From positions 62,001 to 126,000 of the forward strand of contig NZ_QQWG01000006.1 in assembly GCF_003863355.1 (NCBI RefSeq): a stretch of 64,000 nucleotides of DNA, in the 5' to 3' direction. The first letter of the stretch is position 1. Each line of letters starts with the position of its first letter. A program made the translations under genes and the position numbers. Positions 11,402 through 32,441 of the stretch are shown piece after piece. The notes under the pieces were generated by a model. That model searched no databases. It was not told the DNA's origin and worked only from the letters and a program-made list of their open reading frames with translations. Source of the stretch: Ancylomarina euxina (lineage in GTDB: Bacteria > Bacteroidota > Bacteroidia > Bacteroidales > Marinifilaceae).

Positions 11402-11474
11402 GATTCCTTAGCTCAGCTGGTAGAGCACATCACTTTTAATGATGGGGTCCTGGGTTCGAACCCCAGAGGGATCA
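11402..11474 (+). tRNA. tRNA-Lys(UUU), copy 1 of 8
   Basis: A 73-nt cloverleaf. Acceptor GATTCCT/AGGGATC has one G-U pair, the anticodon stem is CATCA/TGATG, the loop CTTTTAA carries anticodon TTT, and the T-arm is CTGGG TTCGAAC CCCAG. The discriminator is A and the 3' CCA is not encoded. Confidence 0.97.
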
Positions 11475-11513
11475 CAACAAGACAAGCAAAAGTCTTGCAA
11501 ATAAAATCAGCAC

Positions 11514-11586
11514 GATTCCTTAGCTCAGCTGGTAGAGCACATCACTTTTAATGATGGGGTCCTGGGTTCGAACCCCAGAGGGATCA
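11514..11586 (+). tRNA. tRNA-Lys(UUU), copy 2 of 8
   Basis: Identical in sequence to copy 1 by direct reading, after a 39-nt spacer. Confidence 0.97.
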
Positions 11587-11626
11587 CAATAAGACAAGCA
11601 AAAAGTCTTACAAATAAAATCAGCAC

Positions 11627-11699
11627 GATTCCTTAGCTCAGCTGGTAGAGCACATCACTTTTAATGATGGGGTCCTGGGTTCGAACCCCAGAGGGATCA
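11627..11699 (+). tRNA. tRNA-Lys(UUU), copy 3 of 8
   Basis: Identical to copy 1; the preceding spacer is 40 nt, the only one not 39 nt. Confidence 0.97.
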
Positions 11700-11738
11700 C
11701 AATAAGACAAGCAAAAGTCTTTTAAATAAAATCAGCAC

Positions 11739-11811
11739 GATTCCTTAGCTCAGCTGGTAGAGCACATCACTTTTAATGATGGGGTCCTGGGTTCGAACCC
11801 CAGAGGGATCA
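11739..11811 (+). tRNA. tRNA-Lys(UUU), copy 4 of 8
   Basis: Identical to copy 1, 39-nt spacer. Confidence 0.97.
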
Positions 11812-11850
11812 CAATAAGACAAGCAAAAGTCTTTTAAATAAAATCAGCAC

Positions 11851-11923
11851 GATTCCTTAGCTCAGCTGGTAGAGCACATCACTTTTAATGATGGGGTCCT
11901 GGGTTCGAACCCCAGAGGGATCA
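11851..11923 (+). tRNA. tRNA-Lys(UUU), copy 5 of 8
   Basis: Identical to copy 1, 39-nt spacer. Confidence 0.97.
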
Positions 11924-11962
11924 CAATAAGACAAGCAAAAGTCTTTCAAATAAAATCAGCAC

Positions 11963-12035
11963 GATTCCTTAGCTCAGCTGGTAGAGCACATCACTTTTAA
12001 TGATGGGGTCCTGGGTTCGAACCCCAGAGGGATCA
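11963..12035 (+). tRNA. tRNA-Lys(UUU), copy 6 of 8
   Basis: Identical to copy 1, 39-nt spacer. Confidence 0.97.
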
Positions 12036-12074
12036 CAATAAGACAAGCAAAAGTCTTTCAAATAAAATCAGCAC

Positions 12075-12147
12075 GATTCCTTAGCTCAGCTGGTAGAGCA
12101 CATCACTTTTAATGATGGGGTCCTGGGTTCGAACCCCAGAGGGATCA
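12075..12147 (+). tRNA. tRNA-Lys(UUU), copy 7 of 8
   Basis: Identical to copy 1, 39-nt spacer. Confidence 0.97.
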
Positions 12148-12186
12148 CAACAAGATAAGCAAAAGTCTTTCAAATAAAATCAGCAC

Positions 12187-12259
12187 GATTCCTTAGCTCA
12201 GCTGGTAGAGCACATCACTTTTAATGATGGGGTCCTGGGTTCGAACCCCAGAGGGATCA
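12187..12259 (+). tRNA. tRNA-Lys(UUU), copy 8 of 8
   Basis: Identical to copy 1. The spacer before it reads AAGATAAGC where most others read AAGACAAGC. A terminator follows 4 nt after the 3' end. Confidence 0.97.
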
Positions 12260-12263
12260 CTCG

Positions 12264-20005: not shown

Positions 20006-23000
20006 CTAGGATAAATAGTGGCTATAAGTATTAATATCCAGAGTTTCCAGTGATTTTTTACAGAACGAGTAGATAAATGCACTGGCCAATCTCGCATTCG
20101 TTACTAAAGGTACATTTAGGTCGATTGCGGTACGTCTAATCTGATAGTCGTTAAACAATTCATCTTCGCTTAAATTCTTAGGAATATTGATCACAAAATC
20201 GACCTCTTTACTTCGAATCAAGTCTAGTGCTGTTATTTCCCCTTTTTCATCAGGCCAAGCAACACCTTCTATCTCAACACCATTCTCAGAAAGGAATTTT
20301 GCAGTCCCTCGCGTTCCATATAATTTGTACCCTTTCTTCTGTAGCATCTGAGTACTTTTTAGAAGCTCAATCTTAGAACGAATGGGGCCACTACTGATTA
20401 ACACGCCTTTTTTCGGTATTCGATAACCCACTGATAACATTGATTTTAGTATCGCATCGTAATAATCTGGCCCAATACAGCCTACTTCACCTGTCGAAGC
20501 CATATCAACACCCAGAACCGGATCCGCTTTTGACAATCTTGAGAAAGAGAATTGTGAGGCTTTCACACCAATATTTTCTAATTCAAACATAGATGGCATT
20601 TGAGAAGGAATCGTTCCATTAAGCATCGCTTTGGTAGCCAACTCCACAAAATTGAAGTCCATTACTTTCGAAACAAATGGAAAACTACGGCTAGCTCTTA
20701 AATTACATTCGATCACTTTTATATCGTTATCCTTAGCCAATAATTGCATATTGAAAGGTCCAGTAATATTCAAAGACTTAGCAATCTCTCTTGCAATTTT
20801 ACGAATACGACGAATCGTCTCGAAATAAAGTTTCTGAGGTGGAAATACCAAAGTGGCATCACCAGAATGAACCCCTGCAAACTCGACGTGTTCCGAGATA
20901 GCATCGATCAGGATTTCACCATCTTTTGCGACTCCATCGAACTCAATTTCTTTAGCTTCCTGAATAAACTCACTCACAACCACAGGATATTGTTTAGAAA
21001 CCTGAGTCGCCAAATTTAGGAAATGTTCCAGTTCGTTTTTATTGGATACCACATTCATTGCTGCACCAGACAGTACGTAACTAGGACGAATCAGAACAGG
21101 GAAGTTAACTTCATCAATAAAGGTATGAATGGCCTCAATACTGCTCAATTCCGCCCAACGAGGTTGATCTACACGCAAATCATCGAGCATCGCCGAGAAG
21201 GTTTTTCTATTCTCTGCTCTATCGATACTTTCAGGTGAAGTTCCCAATACCTTCACATCCGAATGATGCAGACGCATAGCAAGATTATTAGGAATCTGAC
21301 CACCCACAGAGACAATCACGCCCTTAGGTTGCTCTAAATCGATAATATCAAGCACTCGTTCAAATGATAGTTCATCGAAATATAAACGGTCACATACATC
21401 ATAGTCCGTACTAACCGTTTCTGGATTGTAGTTAATCATGACCGAACGATAACCTTCTTTCTTCACACCACTTAAGGCATTCACACTGCACCAGTCGAAC
21501 TCGACACTGGAACCAATACGATAAGCTCCCGATCCCAAAACGATAACCGATTTATTGTCATTCTCATAAACCAGATCATTTTCACTACCACTATAAGTTA
21601 AATACAAGTAGTTGGTTTGAGCAGGATATTCAGCTGCAAGCGTATCAATTTGCTTCACAACTGGAGTAATTCCAAGTTTCTTACGGGCATTTCTAACCTG
21701 TAAAAGCTCCGGTTCCATATTGCCATCTTCGGGTTTTAGAACAAAGCGAGCAATCTGAAAATCAGAGAAACCATATACCTTAGATTTTCGGAAGAGATCA
21801 GTACCTAAAGAATTCAATTCATTAACTTTCTGAAGCTCCCATTTTAGCTTGCTAATATTCTCCAACTTACTCAAGAACCACTTATCAATAGCAGTTAGGT
21901 CATGGATTTGATTCACCGTATAGCCTTTTTCGAAGGCTTGAGCAATGGCAAATATCCTCATATCTGTAGGGTTAGCCAATTCTTTATCAACATCCTCGAA
22001 CTTGGAATTTTTGTTGCCTACAAAACCATGCATGCCCTGTCCTATCATTCGAAGTCCTTTCTGAATGGCCTCCTCAAAGTTTCGACCAATGGCCATCACT
22101 TCTCCAACCGATTTCATACTAGATCCGATTTCCTTAGTCACGCCTTCGAACTTGTTCAAATCCCAACGAGGTATTTTACACACCACATAGTCGAGTGCTG
22201 GCTCAAAACAAGCTGTTGTAGTTTTGGTTACCGCATTTTTCAGATCCTGAAGCGCATAACCCAATCCTAACTTAGCCGCTACGAAAGCCAATGGATAACC
22301 TGTCGCTTTTGAAGCAAGCGCAGAAGAACGAGACAGACGTGCATTCACCTCAATTACACGGTAATCCTCCGAGTTTGGATCCAAAGCATACTGGACATTA
22401 CATTCTCCAACCACACCAAAGTGACGAATAATCTTAAGGGCAAGCGATCTTAGCTTGTGATATTCTGAGTTGGTTAGTGTTTGTGATGGTGCAATAACGA
22501 TACTTTCACCCGTATGAATTCCAAGAGGGTCAAAATTTTCCATATTACAAACCGTAATACAGTTGTCATAGGCATCACGAACTACTTCATATTCTACCTC
22601 TTTCCATCCCTTCAGGGACTCTTCAACTAAAATTTGAGATGAGTAGGACAAAGCATTTTCAGCTAAGACTCTTAGCTCATCCATATTGTTACAAAAACCT
22701 GAACCTTGACCACCCAAAGTAAAAGCAGCACGAACAATGATTGGAAAACCTAATGTTCCTGCAGCATTCAAAGCATCATCGATTGAACCTACAGCCATAC
22801 TCTTTGGCGTTTTCACATCGATAGAGCGAAGTTCCTGAGCAAATATTTCTCTATCTTCAGTTTTAATGATGGTCTCAATAGGTGTTCCTAAGACCTTCAG
22901 ATTATATTTTTTAAGCGTTCCAGCATTAAAGAGCTCAATACCGCAATTCAGGGCCGTTTGTCCTCCAAAAGCTAATAGAATACCATCAGGCTTCTCTTTA

Positions 23001-23230
23001 AGAATCACTTGTTCTACAAAATAAGGTGTTATAGGTAGAAAATAGATTTCATCTGCAATACCCTTTGAAGTTTGAACCGTAGCAATATTAGGATTAATCA
23101 GTACCGTTTTGATACCTTCCTCTTTCATCGCTTTAAGAGCCTGAGATCCTGAGTAATCAAATTCACCCGCTTCACCAATCTTAAGCGCTCCTGAACCTAA
23201 TACCAATACTTTCTTTATATTATGAGTCAT
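20006..23230 (-). CDS. carB: carbamoyl-phosphate synthase large subunit
   Basis: Makes carbamoyl phosphate from bicarbonate, ammonia and two ATP for arginine and pyrimidine synthesis. The 1074-residue length is full. The first ATP-grasp half (1-400) starts VLVLGSGALKIGEAGEFDYS. The second half starts at about 555 (VIVLGSGAYRIGSSVEFDW). Both carry the RLSRSSALASKATGYP / NLRASRSFPFVSKV type motifs. The C-terminal MGS-like domain (about 935-1074, GVLISSGPIRSKIELLKST, LYGTRGTAKFL) would bind allosteric effectors. It is the last gene of the operon. Confidence 0.98.
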   Translation of the reverse strand: MTHNIKKVLVLGSGALKIGEAGEFDYSGSQALKAMKEEGIKTVLINPNIATVQTSKGIADEIYFLPITPYFVEQVILKEKPDGILLAFGGQTALNCGIELFNAGTLKKYNLKVLGTPIETIIKTEDREIFAQELRSIDVKTPKSMAVGSIDDALNAAGTLGFPIIVRAAFTLGGQGSGFCNNMDELRVLAENALSYSSQILVEESLKGWKEVEYEVVRDAYDNCITVCNMENFDPLGIHTGESIVIAPSQTLTNSEYHKLRSLALKIIRHFGVVGECNVQYALDPNSEDYRVIEVNARLSRSSALASKATGYPLAFVAAKLGLGYALQDLKNAVTKTTTACFEPALDYVVCKIPRWDLNKFEGVTKEIGSSMKSVGEVMAIGRNFEEAIQKGLRMIGQGMHGFVGNKNSKFEDVDKELANPTDMRIFAIAQAFEKGYTVNQIHDLTAIDKWFLSKLENISKLKWELQKVNELNSLGTDLFRKSKVYGFSDFQIARFVLKPEDGNMEPELLQVRNARKKLGITPVVKQIDTLAAEYPAQTNYLYLTYSGSENDLVYENDNKSVIVLGSGAYRIGSSVEFDWCSVNALSGVKKEGYRSVMINYNPETVSTDYDVCDRLYFDELSFERVLDIIDLEQPKGVIVSVGGQIPNNLAMRLHHSDVKVLGTSPESIDRAENRKTFSAMLDDLRVDQPRWAELSSIEAIHTFIDEVNFPVLIRPSYVLSGAAMNVVSNKNELEHFLNLATQVSKQYPVVVSEFIQEAKEIEFDGVAKDGEILIDAISEHVEFAGVHSGDATLVFPPQKLYFETIRRIRKIAREIAKSLNITGPFNMQLLAKDNDIKVIECNLRASRSFPFVSKVMDFNFVELATKAMLNGTIPSQMPSMFELENIGVKASQFSFSRLSKADPVLGVDMASTGEVGCIGPDYYDAILKSMLSVGYRIPKKGVLISSGPIRSKIELLKSTQMLQKKGYKLYGTRGTAKFLSENGVEIEGVAWPDEKGEITALDLIRSKEVDFVINIPKNLSEDELFNDYQIRRTAIDLNVPLVTNARLASAFIYSFCKKSLETLDINTYSHYLS

Positions 23231-23292
23231 GTTTTTTTGAGTTAATGTTAAGTCACTTTTCCTTCAATTTTTCTCCTTTTACACTTCAACCT

Positions 23293-24375
23293 TTATACTT
23301 TATCCTTGTATGTTTCCATCATTCCAATGAAATCGTCGAATAAGAATTCTGTATCAGTTGGCCCACTTGAGGCTTCAGGGTGGAACTGAGATGCAAAGAA
23401 AGGCTTCGTTTTGTGCTTAATTCCCTCACAGGTATTATCATTAGCATTTTCAAACAAAACCTCCCAATCCGATGGTAATGTTGCCGTATCGATAGCATAA
23501 CCATGATTTTGAGAGGTGATGTAACAACGCTTGGTACCTTTTAAAAGCACGGGTTGATTGTGTGATCGATGACCATATTTTAGTTTATAGGTATCAGCTC
23601 CTGCAGCTAAAGCCATTAGCTGAGTCCCCAGACAAATACCCATAATTGGTTTATCCTGACCAATAGCAGTTTTAACATGTTCTATGGCTTTCACATTCAA
23701 TTTTGGATCACCAGGTCCGTTTGAGATAAACAGGCCATCGTAATCTTCATTCGTAAAGTCAAAATCGTAAGGAACACGGGTGATTGTTGTATCACGCTTC
23801 AACAAGCAACGAATGATATTATTCTTCACACCACAGTCCAAAAGAAGAACTTTGTGTTTTCCCTTACCGTAAGTCTTTATTTCTGTAGTGCTGACTTCAG
23901 AAACAAGATGACGAGAATTTGGATCGATAAAAGGAACGTCCTGATCATCTACAACAATCTTAGCCTTCATGCTTCCTCCATTTCGAAGCTTCTTTGTTAA
24001 TGCTCGCGTATCCACACCATAAATACCTGGAATCTGATGCTCTTTCATCCAATCGGATAGACTTAAACTCGCATTCCAGTGACTAAAATCCTCGGTATAA
24101 TCCGATACGACAAAACCCGAAAGTTGAATCTTCTCCGATTCGAAATGACGAAACAAATCATCTTCTTTTCTGTCTCCTGGCACGCCATAATTTCCAATCA
24201 AAGGAAAGGTTGTCACCAAAATTTGTCCACGATACGATGGATCACTCAAACTTTCAGGATAACCTGTCATAGCCGTATTAAAGACCATTTCTCCTGCCAC
24301 AGATCCTTCATAACCAAAAGAAGTTCCATGATACTCGCTACCATCTTCTAGTATTAACTTTGCTTGTTTCAACAT
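23293..24375 (-). CDS. carA: carbamoyl-phosphate synthase small subunit
   Basis: A glutaminase subunit that feeds ammonia to CarB. Of 360 residues, the N-terminal domain begins AKLILEDGSEYHGTSFGYEG. The class I glutamine amidotransferase domain has the nucleophile in GICLGTQLMALA and the His/Glu pair in FHPEASSGPTDTEFLFDDF. The residue after CLG is Thr rather than the common His. The intergenic distance to carB is 62 nt and to argH 57 nt, consistent with one transcript. Confidence 0.97.
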   Translation of the reverse strand: MLKQAKLILEDGSEYHGTSFGYEGSVAGEMVFNTAMTGYPESLSDPSYRGQILVTTFPLIGNYGVPGDRKEDDLFRHFESEKIQLSGFVVSDYTEDFSHWNASLSLSDWMKEHQIPGIYGVDTRALTKKLRNGGSMKAKIVVDDQDVPFIDPNSRHLVSEVSTTEIKTYGKGKHKVLLLDCGVKNNIIRCLLKRDTTITRVPYDFDFTNEDYDGLFISNGPGDPKLNVKAIEHVKTAIGQDKPIMGICLGTQLMALAAGADTYKLKYGHRSHNQPVLLKGTKRCYITSQNHGYAIDTATLPSDWEVLFENANDNTCEGIKHKTKPFFASQFHPEASSGPTDTEFLFDDFIGMMETYKDKV

Positions 24376-24432
24376 AAATTGTAATTATATAATGGTTGTT
24401 TATTATTCTTTGTTCTATTGTCTTATAAGTTA

Positions 24433-25770
24433 CTAACTTCTCCCCAATAAATTTTGATAGGCTTGATCGATCTTATCGAAATTAAATGCTGAAATCGTTT
24501 TTTCCAGTTTTTGTTTGATCTCATCATTACATAGATTCCCAATACTCCCTTCGTGCTGATGTTTCAAATCTCCTTCAAACTTAAATTCTCCTGATTCAAC
24601 CAATGCACCGACCTCTTTGTAGGCATCACGGAAAGGAACACCCTTAAGAACCAATTCATTGACCATCTCAACGGTAAAGAGATATTGATACCTTTCATCA
24701 TTCAGCAAATCCTCATTAACCTTAACATTCGACAACATAGTTTTAGTCATCTCTAAACAAGAGATTAGCTGATCGAATGCCGGCATAAAAAACTCTTTGG
24801 TGAGCTGATAATCTCTATGATATCCCGAAGGCAAATTTGAGCTTACAGCTTGTATTTGTGTTGGCAAAACCTGTAATGAATTCGCTTTAGCTCTTACCAA
24901 TTCAAAAACATCGGGGTTCTTTTTGTGCGGCATAATGCTACTACCCGTAGTAAACTCGTCAGCAAAGCTGATAAAACCAAAATTCTGAGAGTTATACAAA
25001 CAAGCATCCATGGCCAGTTTACCAATGGTATAGGCCATATTGGATAGAGCAGACACAACGGCAAACTCCATTTTCCCTCTCCCCATTTGTGCGTAAACCA
25101 CATTATAATTCAGGTCATCAAAGCCAAGCAAGTCCGTAGTCATCTTACGATCAAGAGGAAATGATGAACCATATCCTGCACCTGAACCCAGAGGATTCTG
25201 ATCGACAATTTTAAAAGCAGATTGTAGTAGTCTCAAGTCATCGCTCAATGCCTCTGCATAAGCGCCGAACCACAAGCCAAATGAAGATGGCATGGCCACT
25301 TGCAAATGCGTATAACCTGGGATCAATATATCCTTGTATTTCTCGGAATTTCCGATCAGAACATTAAAAAGTTCTTGTGTTTTATTGACAAGCTGCTCAA
25401 TCTTATGACGTGTGAATAGTTTCAAATCGAGTAAAACCTGATCGTTTCTCGAACGGCCAGAGTGAATCTTCTTTCCCACATCACCTAAAGTCTGAGTCAG
25501 AAGAAATTCTACTTGTGAGTGCACATCTTCAATACCCTCTTCAATCACAAAATGACCCTCTTCAATATCAACAAATATCTTTTGTAGCTCCTTCTCAATC
25601 AGAACAAGTTCTTTAGGGTCTAATAAATTGATACTTGCCAACATCTTACAATGCGCTAATGATCCCAATACATCAAAGGGAGCCAATTGCAAATCAAGTT
25701 CACGATCTTTGCCAACTGTAAAGCTTTCAACATTCTGATTAACCTTTGTACCTTTATCCCAAAGTTTCAT
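24433..25770 (-). CDS. argH: argininosuccinate lyase
   Basis: The last step of arginine synthesis: splits argininosuccinate to arginine and fumarate. 445 residues. The fumarase/ASL signature GSSIMPHKKNPD is present, with HSGRSRNDQVLLDL and HLQVAMPSSFGLWFGAYAEAL. It is followed closely by carA. Confidence 0.97.
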   Translation of the reverse strand: MKLWDKGTKVNQNVESFTVGKDRELDLQLAPFDVLGSLAHCKMLASINLLDPKELVLIEKELQKIFVDIEEGHFVIEEGIEDVHSQVEFLLTQTLGDVGKKIHSGRSRNDQVLLDLKLFTRHKIEQLVNKTQELFNVLIGNSEKYKDILIPGYTHLQVAMPSSFGLWFGAYAEALSDDLRLLQSAFKIVDQNPLGSGAGYGSSFPLDRKMTTDLLGFDDLNYNVVYAQMGRGKMEFAVVSALSNMAYTIGKLAMDACLYNSQNFGFISFADEFTTGSSIMPHKKNPDVFELVRAKANSLQVLPTQIQAVSSNLPSGYHRDYQLTKEFFMPAFDQLISCLEMTKTMLSNVKVNEDLLNDERYQYLFTVEMVNELVLKGVPFRDAYKEVGALVESGEFKFEGDLKHQHEGSIGNLCNDEIKQKLEKTISAFNFDKIDQAYQNLLGRS

Positions 25771-25837
25771 ACTTTTCTTTTTTATTTACCAATAACCATT
25801 AGCTATATGCCACCTTTTCACTTTCCCCTTTTCCACT

Positions 25838-26911
25838 TTAACCTTGTATTTCTAGACCATTCAATAGTTGGTAATAGATCTCAACACCTTCTTCTATTTC
25901 AAACAAATAGATAAATTCATTAGCCGTATGTGATCGAGCTGAATCCCCAGGTCCAAACTTTAAAGTTGGAAAACCTTTCATAATGGCCTGATCCGAAGTC
26001 GTAGGTGAACCGTAATAGCTTCGTCCCATCTTAATTCCTGCCTGCACAAGAGGGTGATTCAAATTAATTCCCGATGAATTCATTCGAAAAGATCGAGCTT
26101 TTACATCACTCTCGATTTGCTGATCAATCAGTTCAAAAAGGTCTTGATTGCTATAGTGTTCATTACTTCTCACATCCACAACAAAACGGCAACTATCAGG
26201 TACCACATTGTGCTGGCTTCCTGCAGCAATCTGAGTCACAGTCATTTTCACTGGCCCAAGTATTTCTGATTCCTTATCGAACTTGTAAGTTTGAAACCAT
26301 TGTAAATCCTTCATGGCTTTGTCAATAGCATTAACGCCTTCACCTCTGGCCGCATGACCCGAAACACCCTTGGTTTCAACATCCAAAACCATCAGACCTT
26401 TTTCGGCGATAGCCATCTGCATAAGGGTGGGTTCACCAACAATTCCCAAATCGATTTTCCCAATCTCCTTTTGAATCAATTCAAATCCATTTTTGCCAGA
26501 TATCTCTTCTTCAGCCGAAGCAGCAAAAACCAGATTGTAGTCTTGCTCCTTTTCATCAAGTGCTAGAAATGTTGCCATTAGAGAGCACAAACAACCTCCC
26601 GCATCATTCGATCCCAATCCGTATAATTTCCCATCTTCAACAAGTGGTTGAAAAGGATCCTTAGTCCAGGATGCCGAAGCATTTACGGTATCTAAATGCG
26701 AGTTTAAAAGCAATAAAGCTTTGTCCTCAGCATTATGTTTCCCATAGACCCAAACATTATTCCCTTTTCTATGGGTTTGATATTGGTAGCTTTGAAGCAC
26801 TTGCTCCATCAAATCAGCAGCTAAGTTTTCCTCCTTACTGTAGGACTGTATCGCAATCAAACCCTTTAAGGTTTCAATTGCCAAAGCTTTATATATCTCT
26901 AAATTCTTCAT
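25838..26911 (-). CDS. argE: N-acetyl(or succinyl)ornithine deacylase, M20 family
   Basis: Removes the acyl group from acylornithine or acylcitrulline during arginine synthesis. I chose the ATG at 26911 (MKNLEIYKALAIETL). It overlaps the argB stop as ATGA and avoids an extension into argB, giving 357 residues. The M20 metal site shows LLNSHLDTVNAS, GSNDAGGCLCSL and AAEEEISGKNGFE, and SGHAARGEGVNA is in the dimerisation domain. Some Bacteroidota use succinylated intermediates; the sequence alone does not settle which acyl group is used. Confidence 0.9.
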   Translation of the reverse strand: MKNLEIYKALAIETLKGLIAIQSYSKEENLAADLMEQVLQSYQYQTHRKGNNVWVYGKHNAEDKALLLLNSHLDTVNASASWTKDPFQPLVEDGKLYGLGSNDAGGCLCSLMATFLALDEKEQDYNLVFAASAEEEISGKNGFELIQKEIGKIDLGIVGEPTLMQMAIAEKGLMVLDVETKGVSGHAARGEGVNAIDKAMKDLQWFQTYKFDKESEILGPVKMTVTQIAAGSQHNVVPDSCRFVVDVRSNEHYSNQDLFELIDQQIESDVKARSFRMNSSGINLNHPLVQAGIKMGRSYYGSPTTSDQAIMKGFPTLKFGPGDSARSHTANEFIYLFEIEEGVEIYYQLLNGLEIQG

Positions 26912-27687
26912 GAACATTCGATTAATTGGGTGCCACAACATTCATCTTTAGCGAGTATCAACAGATCTCCAATAATAACTTGTACGCCTTTATCAAAAGC
27001 TCTAAAAGCATTCTCTGCCTTTGGTAGCATTCCCTTGTTTATTGATCCATTTTCTTTCATTTCCTGATATAGATTCATATCTAATCGTTTCAGAAAACTC
27101 ATATCATCCTCAGGATTAATCAAAACCCCCGGCTTTTCAAATGAATAAATCAACTTAACCTGATACTGCTGACTTAATGCAATAGCTAATTCCGTTGCAA
27201 CCGTATCGGCATTGGTATTCAAGAGCTGCCCTTTACCATCGTGTGTGATGGCCGAAAGAACTAAAACTTTATCTTGTTCGATGTAGGTCGCTAGAGCTTC
27301 AGTATTCACCTCAAGAACATCACCTACATAGCCATAATCGATACTGGCATGCTGACGTTTCTCAGCCAAAATCAAATTATCATCCGCACCACAAAGACCG
27401 ATTGCTTGCTGATTCAAAGCTTGAAGACCAGCAACAATCTTTTTATTAATCCAACCGGCATACACCATGCTAACCACCTTTAAAGTCTCGGCATTGGTAA
27501 TTCTTCGTCCATCAATCATTGGCGAGCTAATACCCAACTGTTTGGCCATATCTGTGGCTAATTTGCCTCCTCCATGAACCAAAAGTTTAGCCCCTTCTAT
27601 TTTTGCAAAAGCTTCAAGACTTGCGGACAGCTTACTTTCATCGTCGATCAGATTGCCTCCAATTTTTACTAGCGTTAGTTCCTTCAT
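26908..27687 (-). CDS. argB: acetylglutamate kinase
   Basis: Phosphorylates N-acylglutamate. A 259-residue amino-acid-kinase fold with KIGGNLIDDE (phosphate-binding Lys) at the start, LVHGGGKLATDMAKQLG, DGRRITNAETLKVVSMV, and NTNADTVATELAIAL near the nucleotide site. The gene is 2 nt after argD and overlaps argE by 4 nt. The C-terminus is cysteine-rich (ECCGTQLIECS). Confidence 0.96.
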   Translation of the reverse strand: MKELTLVKIGGNLIDDESKLSASLEAFAKIEGAKLLVHGGGKLATDMAKQLGISSPMIDGRRITNAETLKVVSMVYAGWINKKIVAGLQALNQQAIGLCGADDNLILAEKRQHASIDYGYVGDVLEVNTEALATYIEQDKVLVLSAITHDGKGQLLNTNADTVATELAIALSQQYQVKLIYSFEKPGVLINPEDDMSFLKRLDMNLYQEMKENGSINKGMLPKAENAFRAFDKGVQVIIGDLLILAKDECCGTQLIECS

Positions 27688-27689
27688 CT

Positions 27690-28817
27690 CTATTGCTTTT
27701 TAATTAGGGATGAAAACTCACTAATAAATGTTTCAGACTCTGTCATCGAAAGCGTTAAAGGCGGCAGTAACCTTAAGGTCTTTTTCCCTGATGCACCCGT
27801 AAAATAGCCTTTCTCGAAAAGCAAAGCCGACTTTATTTCAGCCATATTTTCCAAATCAACACCTATCATCAAACCTTGGGCTCTAAGGGCTTTTTCTCCC
27901 ACAAGTTTCTTAAGCTCATCTTCCAAATACTGCCCCACTTTTGCCGCATTATCAATCAGCTTTTCTTCTTTCATTACCTCTAAAACAGCGATTCCTGCAG
28001 CACAAGCCAAGTGATTGCCACCAAATGTGGTTCCTAAAAGTCCTGATTTCCCTTCAATTTTAGGGTGAATTAGCACACCAGCAAGGGGAAATCCATTCCC
28101 CATCCCCTTAGCAGTTGTAATGATATCGGCTTTGATATCTGCGTGCTGGTGTGCAAAAAACATCCCTGTTCTTCCATAACCCGATTGAATCTCGTCGAGA
28201 ATAAATAAGGCACTATATTTTTGACAAAGGCTTTCCGCCTCTTTTAAAAACTTAGTTTCGGGTATGACTACGCCATTAACCCCTTGTATACCTTCGATAA
28301 TGAAACCTGCTACATCGCCCTTTTCAAGTTCAGTTTTTAAGGCTTCGGTATCGTTCATCTCTATAAAAACCACATTGTGCTTGGCATTATAGTTTGAAGC
28401 TAGCTTGGCATCATCTGTAACTGCAAGTGCGCCGCCAGTTCTTCCATGGAAAGCACCCTTTATGGCAATAACCTTTGATTTGCCTGTATGAAAAGCGGCC
28501 AATTTTAAGGCATTTTCATTGGCTTCAGCTCCCGAATTACATAAAAATAAGTTGTAATCGGTATAACCCGAAAGCTCTCCCAACTTCTCAGCTAGTTGAT
28601 CCTGTAATTTATTCTCAACCACATTAGAGTAAAATCCCAAACATTTCATCTGATTTTCAAGACGAAATAAATAGTGTGGATGACTATGCCCAATGGAGAT
28701 GACACCGTGACCTCCATAAAAATCTTTATATTCTTTTCCCTCAACATCAGTAAGGATTATTCCTTCTCCTGAAACCAAGTTGATATCGTATTTTGTATAT
28801 GTGTTGAATAATTGCAT
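27690..28817 (-). CDS. argD: acetylornithine aminotransferase
   Basis: PLP enzyme that converts N-acylglutamate semialdehyde to N-acylornithine. 375 residues, class III aminotransferase. GHGVISIGHSHPHY is at the N-terminus. NSGAEANENALKLA binds the phosphate, FILDEIQSGYGRTG holds the PLP-ring Asp, and TTAKGMGNGFPLAG carries the Schiff-base lysine. It sits between argC and argB. Confidence 0.95.
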   Translation of the reverse strand: MQLFNTYTKYDINLVSGEGIILTDVEGKEYKDFYGGHGVISIGHSHPHYLFRLENQMKCLGFYSNVVENKLQDQLAEKLGELSGYTDYNLFLCNSGAEANENALKLAAFHTGKSKVIAIKGAFHGRTGGALAVTDDAKLASNYNAKHNVVFIEMNDTEALKTELEKGDVAGFIIEGIQGVNGVVIPETKFLKEAESLCQKYSALFILDEIQSGYGRTGMFFAHQHADIKADIITTAKGMGNGFPLAGVLIHPKIEGKSGLLGTTFGGNHLACAAGIAVLEVMKEEKLIDNAAKVGQYLEDELKKLVGEKALRAQGLMIGVDLENMAEIKSALLFEKGYFTGASGKKTLRLLPPLTLSMTESETFISEFSSLIKKQ

Positions 28818-28910
28818 TGCAAAAACTTATTTAGAAATTGAGACTGATGAATTAGAAGTTTGAATGGCGTAGAAACCTCCAATCACCAATCTCAATTCAG
28901 AATTCATAAA

Positions 28911-29876
28911 TTAAAAAGCCACTGGCTTCAACCTTAAACCTGCATCCTCAGCCAATCCAAACATGATATTCATATTCTGTACGGCCTGACCTGAAGCACC
29001 CTTCAATAAATTATCTATTATTGAAACGATCAAGAGTTTATCCCCGTGTTTCTCTAGGTGTAAAATGCATTTATTGGTATTCACAGCTTGCTTAACATCT
29101 GTGTTTTCATCACTAATGACTACAAATGGATGTTCCAAATAATAGTTCTGGTAATGAACCATGGCTTCTATAAGGCTCCACTCACAAGTGGTATAAACCG
29201 AGGCTAAAATCCCACGTGAAAAATTACCTCGTACAGGTATAAAATTCACCGCTTTATTAAAGCTATTCTGTAAGTTACAAAGACTCTCTTTAATTTCTGC
29301 TAAATGCTGATGATCAAAAGCTTTATATAGCGACACATTATTGTTCTTCCACGAAAAGTGAGATGTATCGGTTGCAGCTTGCCCAGCTCCTGTTGATCCG
29401 GTAATAGCCGTCACATGAACTTCGCCTTTCAGGGCTTGTTCCTTTGCCAGTGGCAAAAGAGCTAACTCAATAGCCGTTGCAAAACAACCCGGATTCGCAA
29501 TATACTTAGCGCCTGAAATAGCAGCCTTATTCATTTCAGGTAGGCCGTAAACAAAATCATGATGATCACTTTCTAACCTAAAATCCATACTCAAATCGAT
29601 GACCTTTAAATTCTCAGGCAAGTTGTTCTGTTCAAAAAAGCTTTTGCTTTGACCATGACCTGAGCAAAGAAAAACCACATCGACAGCCGCAAAATCAGCT
29701 TCTGAAAAATTCAAAGAACATTCACCAAGCAAATCTTTGTGTACTTTGGTAATAGCTTGTCCTTTATGGCTACTACTCTGAACAAAAACAATCTCTGCCT
29801 CTGGGTGCCAAAGTAAGAGTCTCAACAACTCGCCTGCGGTATATCCCGCTCCTCCTATGATTCCTATTTTTATCAT
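28911..29876 (-). CDS. argC: N-acetyl-gamma-glutamyl-phosphate reductase
   Basis: NADPH-dependent reduction of acylglutamyl phosphate. 321 residues. The Rossmann start is GIIGGAGYTAGELLRLLL. The catalytic cysteine lies in ANPGCFATAIEL, and VHVTAITGSTGAGQ and PVRGNFSRGI follow. The start overlaps the argG stop by 4 nt, implying translational coupling. Confidence 0.97.
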   Translation of the reverse strand: MIKIGIIGGAGYTAGELLRLLLWHPEAEIVFVQSSSHKGQAITKVHKDLLGECSLNFSEADFAAVDVVFLCSGHGQSKSFFEQNNLPENLKVIDLSMDFRLESDHHDFVYGLPEMNKAAISGAKYIANPGCFATAIELALLPLAKEQALKGEVHVTAITGSTGAGQAATDTSHFSWKNNNVSLYKAFDHQHLAEIKESLCNLQNSFNKAVNFIPVRGNFSRGILASVYTTCEWSLIEAMVHYQNYYLEHPFVVISDENTDVKQAVNTNKCILHLEKHGDKLLIVSIIDNLLKGASGQAVQNMNIMFGLAEDAGLRLKPVAF

Positions 29877-31075
29877 CCTTTTGCATTTACAGTGTGATAA
29901 ATCTTCATCGAGTTGGCAAGAATTGTGGTAAAACCTTTCACATCATCGGCAGTCCATCCCTCATTCTTCTCTCCATATTGTCCAAAAGCATCATTCATTA
30001 AATCGTTTGGAGAATTCACCCCAATCATTTGATAATACTTTGGATATAGCATCAGTTTCACTTCTCCCGAAACAGTTGCTTGTGTGTCTTCAAGGAAACA
30101 CTCTATATTTCTCATTAAGGGCTCCAGATATTGGGCTTCGTGCAGTAACATACCGTAGAAATCACCTAATTGATCCTTCCAGTGCATTTGCCATTTGCTT
30201 AAGCAGTGCTTCTCAAGCATTTCATGAGCTTTTAAAATTAAAACTGGCGCAGCAGCTTCGAATGCAACTCTTCCTTTGGTTCCCAAAATGGTGTCGCCAA
30301 TGTGCATATCTCTGCCAATTCCGTAGGCCGATCCTAATTTTTCTATGGTTTTAATCGCATCAATTGGATTCTCGAACTTTTGTCCGTTTACTGATACGAG
30401 TTCTCCTTTTTCAAAGCCGATACTTAATTCGCTTGCTACCGTTTGAGTCACCTGCGATGGATAAGCCTCTTCGGGTATGGTTTGATCCGATACTAAAGTT
30501 TCTTTTCCACCAATACTGGTTCCCCAGATACCTGCATTGATTGAATAGGCCATTTTCTCAAAGGTATCATCAATGCCATGGTCTTTCAGATATTGAATTT
30601 CTTCTTCACGGCTCAGCTCCAAATCTCTGGTTGGGGTAATGATTTGAGCATTGGGTGCCATAATCTTAAAAATCAGATCGAATCTGATTTGATCATTCCC
30701 CGCCCCTGTGCTTCCGTGGGCAATAAAATCAGCTCCAATTTCATTGGCATATTGGGCTATAGCCATAGCCTGAAAAGCTCTTTCTGAACTTACTGATAAG
30801 GGGTAGCAGTTGTTCTTTAGAACATTCCCCATAATCAGGTACTTGATACATTTCGCGTAATATTCTTCGGTAAGATCGATGCTGGTGTGTTGGATCACGC
30901 CCAGCTTTTGAGTTTTATTTTCTATTGCGCTTAGCTCTTCATCACTAAATCCGCCAGTATTTCCTAATACCGTATAAACCTTCATTCCCAAATCCTTCGA
31001 TAAGTGAAGGGCACAATATGTGGTATCTAATCCGCCACTGTAGGCTAAAACGACTTTTTTATCTTTTGTTATCAT
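29873..31075 (-). CDS. argG: argininosuccinate synthase
   Basis: ATP-dependent joining of citrulline and aspartate. 400 residues. The PP-loop AYSGGLDTTYCAL is at residues 10-22, followed by HGSTGAGNDQIRFD and SINAGIWGTSIGGKE. It is followed by argC with a 4-nt overlap and preceded by the acetyltransferase gene at 25 nt. Confidence 0.97.
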   Translation of the reverse strand: MITKDKKVVLAYSGGLDTTYCALHLSKDLGMKVYTVLGNTGGFSDEELSAIENKTQKLGVIQHTSIDLTEEYYAKCIKYLIMGNVLKNNCYPLSVSSERAFQAMAIAQYANEIGADFIAHGSTGAGNDQIRFDLIFKIMAPNAQIITPTRDLELSREEEIQYLKDHGIDDTFEKMAYSINAGIWGTSIGGKETLVSDQTIPEEAYPSQVTQTVASELSIGFEKGELVSVNGQKFENPIDAIKTIEKLGSAYGIGRDMHIGDTILGTKGRVAFEAAAPVLILKAHEMLEKHCLSKWQMHWKDQLGDFYGMLLHEAQYLEPLMRNIECFLEDTQATVSGEVKLMLYPKYYQMIGVNSPNDLMNDAFGQYGEKNEGWTADDVKGFTTILANSMKIYHTVNAKG

Positions 31076-31100: not shown

Positions 31101-31667
31101 CTAAATTTTTTGTTGAGGTTTTTTCGGATCACACAACATGCCTGTACACAAACACATATTGTGATTGGTTCTTTGCAAGATGTCATAATTGATACATGAT
31201 GCACAACCTTTCCAAAAGGTTGCATCTTTAGTAAGTTCCGAAAAAGTAACGGGCTTGTAACCCAGGTCTGAATTGATTTTCATGACCGCCAAGCTGGTGG
31301 TTAATCCGAAGATCTTAGCTTCGGGGAAACGCTTTCTCGATAATTCGAAAGCCTTCTCTTTAATTTGCTTGGCCAATCCAACATAACGGTAGTCGGGGTG
31401 GACTATTAATCCCGAGTTGGCTACATATAACTCATGTTCCCAGGTCTCTATATAGCAAAAACCAATCACCTTGTTCTCGGCAAAGGCAATGATCGCTTTT
31501 CCTTCCTGAAGTTTCTGAGCAATGTATAAAGGATTTCTTTTGGCAATCCCTGTTCCTCTTATTTTAGCAGCTGCTTCAATCATTTCGCATATCTCGGTCG
31601 CATACTCAATATGTATAATTCCCGATTCGATAACAGCTATTTCTTGTTTTATGTCTACAGTTTCCAT
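31101..31667 (-). CDS. GNAT acetyltransferase, probable N-acylglutamate synthase
   Basis: 188 residues. The GNAT core shows IAFAENKVIGFCYIETWEHELYVANSGLIVHPDYR and the acetyl-CoA-binding YVGLAKQIKEKAFELSR. As first enzyme gene of an arginine operon it is most likely the enzyme that acylates glutamate (ArgA role); this is inferred from context. The C-terminal tail has five cysteines in a short stretch (GCASC ... NMCLCTGMLCDP), which is unusual for a GNAT enzyme and could bind a metal. Confidence 0.85.
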   Translation of the reverse strand: METVDIKQEIAVIESGIIHIEYATEICEMIEAAAKIRGTGIAKRNPLYIAQKLQEGKAIIAFAENKVIGFCYIETWEHELYVANSGLIVHPDYRYVGLAKQIKEKAFELSRKRFPEAKIFGLTTSLAVMKINSDLGYKPVTFSELTKDATFWKGCASCINYDILQRTNHNMCLCTGMLCDPKKPQQKI

Positions 31668-31681
31668 TTTATTCTAAATCA

Positions 31682-31822
31682 CTAGGTTTCCCAAAATAGA
31701 GCCACGCCTGTCAGGCTCAACCATTTATTATTAATCTCAATTTCGAAGCTTTCTTTCAAGCCGTTTGTTACACTGTTATATCGGAGCCTTAGCCGATTTT
31801 TCCTGTTAATAAATGTTTTCAT
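31682..31822 (-). CDS. 46-residue arginine-rich small ORF before the acetyltransferase
   Basis: An ATG-to-TAG frame read by hand on the minus strand. It begins MKTFINRKNRLRLRYNSV: four arginine codons (AGG, CGG, AGG, CGA) lie within codons 7-14. It ends 14 nt before the acetyltransferase ATG. A weak hairpin GAGCC/GGCTC followed by TATTTT overlaps its 3' end (31693-31718). It could be a fourth leader peptide, a small coupled protein, or chance. It lies downstream of the third leader terminator. Confidence 0.4.
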   Translation of the reverse strand: MKTFINRKNRLRLRYNSVTNGLKESFEIEINNKWLSLTGVALFWET

Positions 31823-31908: not shown

Positions 31909-31939
31909 AAAAAAAGCCCACCGTGGTCGACGGTAAGCT
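31909..31939 (-). terminator. attenuator-type terminator 3 of the arginine leader
   Basis: On the minus strand AGCTTACCGT pairs with ACGGTGGGCT (10 bp, two G-U) around a 5-nt loop and is followed by T7. It starts 12 nt after the stop of leader peptide 3. The arm GCTTACCGT is shared with terminator 2. Confidence 0.85.
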
Positions 31940-31951
31940 TAGGTATCCTAT

Positions 31952-32044
31952 TTAAGTTAATAGCACATCAGACTCATCCGCCCCTTCTGGGTAGCAGTTC
32001 GAACGCAAATGGCGTCGGCTTACTGTGTAGATAGTTGTTGGCAT
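31952..32044 (-). CDS. arginine leader peptide 3 (30 aa)
   Basis: The minus-strand ORF starts MPTTIYTVSRRHLRSN. Three arginine codons (CGA, CGC, CGT) lie at codons 10-14. The TAA stop is 12 nt before terminator 3. Position and content match a ribosome-attenuation leader peptide, although its arginine run is less tight than in leaders 1 and 2. Confidence 0.65.
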   Translation of the reverse strand: MPTTIYTVSRRHLRSNCYPEGADESDVLLT

Positions 32045-32090
32045 ATGAGTGATTGTTATAATTTAAATTTGAATCTTAAAAAAAATTCTA

Positions 32091-32125
32091 AAAAAAAGGC
32101 TTACCGTATAAACGGTAAGCCTTTT
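32091..32125 (-). terminator. attenuator-type terminator 2 of the arginine leader
   Basis: A perfect 10-bp stem GGCTTACCGT/ACGGTAAGCC with a 4-nt loop, flanked by A4 and followed by T7 on the minus strand. It lies 18 nt after the stop of leader peptide 2. An alternative pairing of AAGCGGTGG (32169-32177, inside leader ORF 2) with TTACCGTTT (32110-32118) gives 9 bp including three G-U and would block this hairpin, a candidate antiterminator. Confidence 0.9.
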
Positions 32126-32139
32126 AAAATATATCATGG

Positions 32140-32226
32140 TCAATTCAGACAACACGACAATAAGACATCCACCGCTTTCTTTAAAAGTGCGCTTGGTCTT
32201 CGTCGGATGTTTAAAAATTGATTCAT
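32140..32226 (-). CDS. arginine leader peptide 2 (28 aa)
   Basis: The minus-strand ORF begins MNQFLNIRRRPSALLKK. Three consecutive arginine codons (CGA CGA AGA, 32197-32205) come at codons 8-10, and it ends with TGA 15-20 nt before terminator 2. A ribosome stalled on these codons would leave the candidate antiterminator strand (32169-32177) free. Confidence 0.8.
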   Translation of the reverse strand: MNQFLNIRRRPSALLKKAVDVLLSCCLN

Positions 32227-32276
32227 TGTTCCGTATTTTTTTCTTTTGATACTCGATAATTTTACTGAATGGGCAT

Positions 32277-32305
32277 AAAAAAAGCCTTCCGATATAAAGG
32301 AAAGC
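32277..32305 (-). terminator. attenuator-type terminator 1 of the arginine leader
   Basis: On the minus strand GCTTTCC pairs with GGAAGGC (7 bp, one G-U) with an 8-nt loop and is followed by T7. It lies 30 nt after the stop of leader peptide 1. AAGGGAG at 32330-32336, overlapping the leader stop, can pair with CTTTCCTTT of the left arm (7 bp, two G-U), a candidate antiterminator. Confidence 0.85.
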
Positions 32306-32334
32306 CTGGATAATAATCCACAAACAATGCTCCC

Positions 32335-32385
32335 TTATTGTTGAAATAAAGATCTGCGTCGTCGAATTATCATTTTTGTAGCCAT
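32335..32385 (-). CDS. arginine leader peptide 1 (16 aa)
   Basis: The minus-strand ORF encodes MATKMIIRRRRSLFQQ and then TAA. Four consecutive arginine codons (CGA CGA CGC AGA, 32353-32364) make up a quarter of the peptide. The ATG lies about 24 nt after the -7 box of the promoter. It is followed by terminator 1. This is the classic architecture of a ribosome-mediated attenuation leader for an arginine operon. It was read directly from the sequence. Confidence 0.88.
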   Translation of the reverse strand: MATKMIIRRRRSLFQQ

Positions 32386-32408
32386 GCTTTTTCTGTTTTT
32401 TGTTGAGA

Positions 32409-32441
32409 CAAATGTAGAAACAATTTTTCGATAAAACCAAA
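32409..32441 (-). promoter_or_regulatory. promoter of the arginine operon
   Basis: On the minus strand TTTG (32441-32438), 21 nt, then TACATTTG (32416-32409) is a full Bacteroidota consensus promoter. Predicted transcription start is near 32400, giving a very short 5' end before leader peptide 1. Confidence 0.8.

Follow-up and report, generated by a model that had tools for sequence, protein, structure and literature searches.

On the minus strand of the 64,000-nt stretch of DNA analysed here (hereafter the window), an arginine operon is preceded by three short open reading frames (ORFs) with Arg codons, each followed by a terminator, which raises the question of whether and how three such units act on a single operon. 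We propose that the region very probably comprises three ribosome-mediated transcription attenuators in series, all sensing the charging of Arg-tRNA and leading from one promoter to the arg operon. With charged Arg-tRNA at hand, the ribosome would reach the leader stop codon, the terminator would fold and RNA polymerase would leave; when arginine is short, the ribosome would halt at the Arg codons, the 5′ arm of the terminator would be paired with a strand upstream of it and the polymerase would proceed to the next unit. Since the operon would be read only if all three gates opened, we infer an arginine response in which the readthroughs multiply, with lower leak and a steeper course than a single unit would give.

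Layout of the leader region

The first-pass annotation had described three Arg leader-ORF/terminator units in series ahead of the arginine genes, headed by a promoter, and our own scans located all of these elements (Table 1). Under our criteria, these are the only Arg-leader plus terminator units on either strand of the 64 kb, and scanning likewise for every other amino acid returned at most two units in the window (Lys). A pattern scan listed terminators 1 and 3 and missed terminator 2, probably because its stem extends into the T-run; our scans recovered all three. The surrounding 4 kb contains 12 terminator-like sites versus 3.0 expected, and nine sigma-70-like sites versus 12.1 in shuffled sequence, which is no excess over chance. 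By position the three-unit chain precedes genes of the matching pathway, namely those for a GNAT N-acyltransferase followed by argG, C, D, B, E and H. The genes from argG to argH were named through Pfam domains, and carA and carB were recognised from their translations. No Rfam family reached its gathering threshold in the leader region, which by this search has no aptamer or T-box RNA domain that would place it among tandem riboswitches or T-boxes; all eight Rfam hits in the window are to tRNAs. A tandem array of eight tRNA-Lys(TTT) genes, spaced by about 112 nt, lies at 11402-12260 of the window.

Table 1 Features of the arginine leader region and operon, by position in the window.
Feature	Position	Strand	Details
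Promoter, Bacteroidota-type	32409..32441	-	TTTG 32441-32438, 21 nt, TACATTTG 32416-32409
Leader ORF 1	32335..32385	-	MATKMIIRRRRSLFQQ, stop TAA; present at 21/21 loci, peptide variable
Unit 1 hairpin 1:2	32333..32351	-	CTTTATT / AATAAGG, directly past the last Arg codon
Terminator 1	32282..32307	-	9 bp, 4 GC, T-run
Leader ORF 2	32140..32226	-	MNQFLNIRRRPSALLKKAVDVLLSCCLN, 28 aa with RRR, stop TGA; 21/21 loci
Terminator 2	32094..32125	-	14 bp, T8
Leader ORF 3	31952..32044	-	MPTTIYTVSRRHLRSNCYPEGADESDVLLT, 30 aa with RRHLR, stop TAA; 21/21 loci
Unit 3 hairpin 1:2 (anti-antiterminator)	31978..31997	-	pair counts
Unit 3 antiterminator, predicted	31927..31984	-	31984-31971 pairs with 31939-31927
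Terminator 3	31914..31940	-	11 bp, T7
ORF 4	31682..31822	-	46 aa, Arg-rich N-terminal half, conserved C-terminal half NNKWLSLTGVALFWET; stop TAG, 14 nt ahead of the GNAT ATG
GNAT N-acyltransferase gene, first of the operon	31101..31667	-	Pfam PF13508/PF00583
argG, argC, argD, argB, argE (M20 peptidase family), argH, carA, carB	20006..31075	-	

The element at 32441-32409 is of the Bacteroidota promoter type. Each of the 21 non-redundant loci described below has, shortly ahead of unit 1, an exact TANNTTTG that is preceded at a distance of 20-21 nt by a TTTG-like element with no more than one mismatch. Among these loci the window genome alone has a second exact TANNTTTG ahead of the GNAT gene, at about 31888, as part of a promoter-like TTTG-19-TANNTTTG motif between unit 3 and ORF 4. 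Transcription starting at such a motif could avoid the three gates in this genome, and the motif counts against reading the region as a chain.

Conservation of the units and distribution of ArgR

The GNAT protein of the window is 87-90% identical to those of its nearest named relatives, Ancylomarina, a genus for which, together with Labilibaculum, a merger into Marinifilum has been proposed (PMC12325347). It has matches in 38 of 58 related genomes, and upstream DNA was read at 30 loci (L001-L030), the other eight GNAT-matching genomes being without a locus. All three units and ORF 4 occur at 14 of these loci (L001-L014) and none at the remaining 16 (L015-L030), two of which, L015 and L024, offered upstream sequence of just 537 and 219 nt. 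Of the 80 best named loci, 13 (L031-L043) carried three units. A strict recount of the same 80 gave three units in 12, two in one (L035, where terminator 2 has one mismatch), one in five (L067, L072, L090, L102 and L107) and none in 62; the unit at L102, 1.1 kb off, is probably a chance occurrence. At L072, L090 and L107, which belong to other Bacteroidota, a single Arg leader and terminator stand before the same GNAT gene, and the series may therefore have grown from one unit. Upstream of GNAT in Ochrovirga and Wenyingzhuangia (L066, L076, L080 and L083), a leader ORF ends in RRRRxRE or PRRRIRE; no terminator was called after it, and these loci share a terminator-like hairpin farther upstream.

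Removal of six duplicates (L007, L031, L032, L033, L037 and L042) reduced 27 triple loci to 21 non-redundant ones, all from the Ancylomarina/Labilibaculum/Marinifilum clade. Conservation of the order of ORFs and hairpins in relatives, which the first-pass annotation had set as a test, is seen at all 21, where units 1-3 follow one another in the same order, and by a relaxed scan each of the 63 unit instances (21 loci, three units each) has a terminator. Across genomes of the family, a model of unit 3 matched 22 of 23 in the clade and none of 33 others at comparable scores; the one clade genome without a match (G074, 80% complete) also lacks ORF 4. Units 1 and 2 were read in those clade genomes that have a locus. 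Outside the clade the unit 3 model gave lower-scoring matches in five of the 33 genomes, three of them to hisG leaders (G006, G077 and G079) and two partial, covering the terminator end only (G005 and G060).

The domain (PF01316) of ArgR, the repressor that usually controls arginine genes, was searched for in 56 genomes of the family and matched in none of the 23 from six clade genera (g1, g5, g7, g9, g10 and g13) and in 24 of the 33 others; a control search gave matches in nine of 14 genomes, a Bacteroides among them. Nine of the 33 other family genomes are likewise without an ArgR match, yet have neither ORF 4 nor a strong unit 3 match, and ArgR and ORF 4 are both missing from ten of the 56. 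In the same order but outside the family, an ArgR match occurs in five genomes, about 0.3 kb upstream of a GNAT match on the same strand in G035, G039, G040 and G044 and about 1.5 kb upstream in G043. Among the matches tabulated, no ArgR match within the family lies comparably close to a GNAT match, so the idea that the chain took the former place of argR is no more than suggestive. Furthermore, the clade is probably one lineage, and the absence of ArgR and the presence of the chain may therefore be a single event. Since no ArgR was found in the clade, arginine synthesis there is probably controlled mainly by the chain, which we infer to have replaced ArgR.

Predicted pairing, Arg codons and alternative readings

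The RNA of each unit was folded up to the end of the terminator 5′ arm in three states, with a ribosome stalled at the Arg codons, with one at the stop codon and with none, and sequestration of the arm was averaged over the 21 loci, with 40 spacer shuffles per unit and locus. For a stalled ribosome, a ribosome at the stop, no ribosome, and a stalled ribosome with shuffled spacer, respectively, sequestration was 0.72, 0.33, 0.65 and 0.47 in unit 1, 0.69, 0.22, 0.39 and 0.52 in unit 2, and 0.90, 0.15, 0.58 and 0.53 in unit 3; the values at the stop are low partly because less RNA remains, which makes that comparison partly trivial, and the unit 1 arm is sequestered nearly as much without a ribosome as with a stalled one. 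Unit 3 is clear locus by locus, with at most 7% of shuffles as high at all 21, and units 1 and 2 are weak, with at most 5% of the 40 shuffles as high at seven and five of 21 loci, respectively. Folding the full alignment to a consensus, truncated at the 5′ arm, recovered an antiterminator in unit 3 only; in unit 2 one appeared within sub-clades. In these sub-clade folds of unit 2 the Arg codons themselves are paired with sequence farther downstream, well in two of the three folds and partly in the third. The attenuation layout that the first-pass annotation ascribed to each unit is thus complete in leader ORF and terminator throughout, with an antiterminator predicted clearly in unit 3 and weakly in units 1 and 2.

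Pair counts covered the three terminators and, for units 1 and 3, hairpins 1:2 and antiterminators. Covariation of the hairpins, which the earlier annotation had named as a sign of function, was found in hairpins 1:2 of units 1 and 3 and in terminator 2, and not in terminators 1 and 3. Hairpin 1:2 of unit 1 has 99.3% of cells paired and a CG to UA exchange in eight sequences; that of unit 3 has 98.6% of cells paired in the helix and 99.0% over the structure, with UA to CG in five sequences. Terminator 2 is paired in 99.6% of cells with changes on both sides in two pairs, and none of 500 shuffles reached the covariation score of any of these three elements. The seven core pairs of terminator 1 are formed in 100% of cells, terminator 3 is paired in 95.7% and the unit 1 antiterminator in 87.7%, in each case with covariation not beyond shuffles. 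The unit 3 antiterminator, with 91.9% of cells paired in its outer helix and 86.4% over the whole structure versus 39-51% when slid, covaries weakly; weak covariation is expected here, and is not proof, because a terminator arm that pairs with two partners can change little.

If the sensitivities of the units differ, the chain could be staged rather than steep, with the strictest gate setting the threshold or each gate sampling a different moment. The units do differ in the number and position of their Arg codons and in terminator strength, which makes this reading plausible, though we regard it as less likely than a steep response. A serial chain passes nothing until all its gates open, such that staging would merely shift the threshold, and codons of the CGN type predominate in every unit (78 of 99 Arg codons in unit 1, 61 of 80 in unit 2 and 61 of 63 in unit 3, over the 21 loci). 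Given the same predominance, the suggestion of the first-pass annotation that the units possibly read different arginyl-tRNA isoacceptors is not supported. CGA, CGC and CGT are normally decoded by a single tRNA-Arg(ICG), and a division of isoacceptors among the units is therefore not apparent. Overall, the 242 Arg codons of units 1-3 at the 21 loci comprise 140 CGA, 44 CGC, 42 AGA, 15 CGT and one CGG, and the 207 in eleven long ORFs of the window comprise 69 CGT, 66 AGA, 38 CGA, 15 CGC, 15 AGG and four CGG; the window's own leaders show a modest excess of CGA (5 of 10, Fisher p 0.028). This preference for CGA may partly stem from the pairing of the codons themselves.

Alternatively, one unit might regulate, with the other two serving as insurance or being remnants of tandem duplication with little effect. 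Other attenuators of the clade bear on this, and also count in favour of the attenuation reading. One Trp leader with a terminator precedes trpE in all seven clade genomes examined, and in the same number ilvD is preceded by a pair of Ile/Val leader ORFs, both followed by terminators of their own (L162-L165 and L167-L169); G006, outside the clade, has two Ile/Val ORFs and one called terminator. A survey of 28 ilvD loci across the order, reading up to 700 nt and dropping one fragment (L201), found single units in 13, a double unit in one (the window's own) and none in 14. A His leader precedes hisG in seven of seven clade genomes; it is double in both Ancylomarina (G000 and G003) and single in five, in four of which a terminator was called (the exception being G016). 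The tandem his units (L133 and L130) share 86% (G000) and 80% (G003) identity across about 150 nt, so whole attenuator units do duplicate in tandem in this lineage. With the model of arginine unit 3, single His leaders such as MITTLHHNHHHCHHCFG, each with a terminator, were found upstream of hisG in other genomes of the family (L121, L122 and L124). Thr-rich leader ORFs stand before thrA in three of four genomes, the window's not among them, with no terminator called.

The clade thus offers a natural series for the stacking of gates, with one unit for trp, one or two for his, two for ilv and three for arg, and the doubled his unit of Ancylomarina shows how stacks can begin. In the arg region, in keeping with duplication, units 2 and 3 aligned above shuffles at the three loci compared (scores of 48, 65 and 67 versus maxima of 34, 44 and 38 in 100 shuffles), and units 1 and 2 did so narrowly. 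Units 1 and 3, however, did not exceed shuffles at any of the three. Moreover, the Arg codons and terminators of all three units are kept at 21 of 21 loci although the spacers and much of the peptides have diverged, whereas remnants should decay. We therefore consider it unlikely that a single unit carries the regulation, and prefer a chain in which all three act.

A third possibility is that terminated leader RNAs or the leader peptides act in trans, as was reported for the leader peptide peTrpL of Sinorhizobium meliloti (PMC7298713). The first-pass annotation had named kept Arg codons in otherwise free peptides as a sign in favour of attenuation; leaders 1 and 2 do vary elsewhere, and leader 3 departs from this in holding a fixed 11-residue core, SRRHLRSNCYP, identical at all 21 loci. 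This core and the C-terminal half of leader 2, which is largely conserved, exceed what a free peptide would need and would suit action in trans. RNA pairing, however, accounts for much of the conservation of the leaders, and we judge a role in trans to be very unlikely. Leader 3 was also considered as an arrest peptide, a candidate that we rejected since pairing explains much of the conservation of its core; amino acid selection on the core may act in addition, given that six Ancylomarina-like loci encode its Ser by TCG and the remaining 15 by AGT. Finally, chance ORFs next to ordinary terminators, conceivable because AT-rich DNA is rich in short ORFs, are refuted to the point of a negligible residual probability, as 299 of 300 dinucleotide shuffles of the intergenic region held no unit, one held a single unit, and the units are conserved at 21 of 21 loci.

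ORF 4 and comparison with known systems

Downstream of unit 3 and ahead of the first enzyme gene lies ORF 4, which the first-pass annotation missed and which is present in 22 of 23 clade genomes and none of the 33 other family genomes. Its C-terminal half has a pS of 0.79 and a pN of 0.18, versus 0.65 and 0.50 in the N-terminal half and 0.74 and 0.50 in the first 20 GNAT codons; by these proportions the C-terminal half is under purifying selection. The stop codon is TAG at all 21 loci and lies 14 nt from the GNAT start in the window and, judged by eye, about 7-17 nt from it elsewhere. ORF 4 shows no conserved RNA structure across the 21 loci. A fourth terminator unit was rejected on this ground and because TTC TGG interrupts the T-run at four of the 21 loci (L002, L005, L006 and L035); a hairpin was called near the end of ORF 4 in five loci (L011, L012, L013, L014 and L043). 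Two ORF 4 peptides gave no match to SpeFL/DUF2618 (PF10940) in a Pfam scan up to E 5, and Pfam returned nothing above threshold, with one sub-threshold match (DEPDC5_CTD, E 0.052). No relatives with solved structures appeared up to E 1, and a search of 395 genomes of the phylum found the window's own copy and one weak match (G216, E 1.7e-4, stop in frame).

Leader genes of Bacteroidetes were reported to peak at 11-14 bp before structural genes, for which Korolev and colleagues proposed reinitiation, a peak that in some other groups is strongest for UAG (PMC4833913). The peptide-level selection on ORF 4 suggests more than reinitiation, and the probable target of ORF 4 is the translation of the first enzyme. 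With TnaC and SpeFL as models for comparison, ORF 4 has the conserved C-terminal residues up to the stop and the variable N-terminus expected of an arrest peptide of their type, and is possibly a candidate new nascent-peptide regulator. A more specific proposal, which we consider doubtful, adds to the three attenuators in series an arrest peptide encoded by ORF 4, which would read arginine or a metabolite of its pathway on the ribosome and gate GNAT synthesis. With arginine plentiful, the ribosome would stall at the ORF 4 TAG and mask the nearby GNAT start, and shortage would bring release. Feedback by arginine often acts via an amino acid kinase domain, and the first enzyme here is a lone GNAT domain without one. 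If the proposal is true, this lone-GNAT enzyme would be controlled at its synthesis by a nascent chain, and the operon would combine three tRNA-charging gates with one gate for a free metabolite.

Single leader-peptide attenuators, such as those of trp, his, leu, ilv and thr, are textbook systems. The three arg units share with them a short ORF with codons for the end product, alternative hairpins, an intrinsic terminator and an operon of the same pathway, and differ from them in responding, as proposed, to arginine and in standing three in series. The nearest tandem case that we found is Salmonella mgtCBR, where tandem attenuators answer two different signals; the authors call the case singular, and as described its stem-loops are unlike intrinsic terminators (PMC3641672). 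Pausing on leader Arg codons reports arginine in Salmonella speF orf34 (PMC6386406) and in Staphylococcus aureus rbfL (PMC13009471), each a single unit working through Rho, masking of the ribosome-binding site (RBS) and RNase G in the former and an RBS block in the latter, and neither is described there as an intrinsic-terminator attenuator of arginine synthesis. Among Bacteroidota, Flavobacterium psychrophilum was reported to show 'strong clues' for attenuation by leader peptides ahead of operons for amino acid biosynthesis (PMC9723704), and long 5′ UTRs of Bacteroides thetaiotaomicron hold small ORFs reminiscent of leader peptides (PMC7366714); the cases described in the relevant parts of these reports include no arginine leader and no series for one signal. 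The rimP leader has a second terminator in tandem before its operon in several Gammaproteobacteria, with no amino acid codon signal in the account given of it (PMC2965389). In the open-licence literature, a scope that leaves most subscription journals outside, we found neither leader-peptide attenuators placed in series for the same signal nor a leader-peptide attenuator of arginine biosynthesis.

If these Bacteroidota depend on several leader-peptide attenuators, their transcription and translation would be expected to be tightly coupled. The closest likeness to the arg chain is with 'pseudo-cooperative' tandem riboswitches, such as the tandem TPP and triple-tandem c-di-GMP riboswitches, in which independent termination switches for one signal likewise stand in series and were reported to give a steeper response (PMC9481103; PMC4759541). 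Those sense their ligand by an RNA aptamer, whereas here the translating ribosome would read the charging of Arg-tRNA. Our best reading is that the arg chain is the leader-peptide counterpart of such riboswitches; if true, leader peptides would yield the same 'digital' serial logic, in a clade where no ArgR was found.
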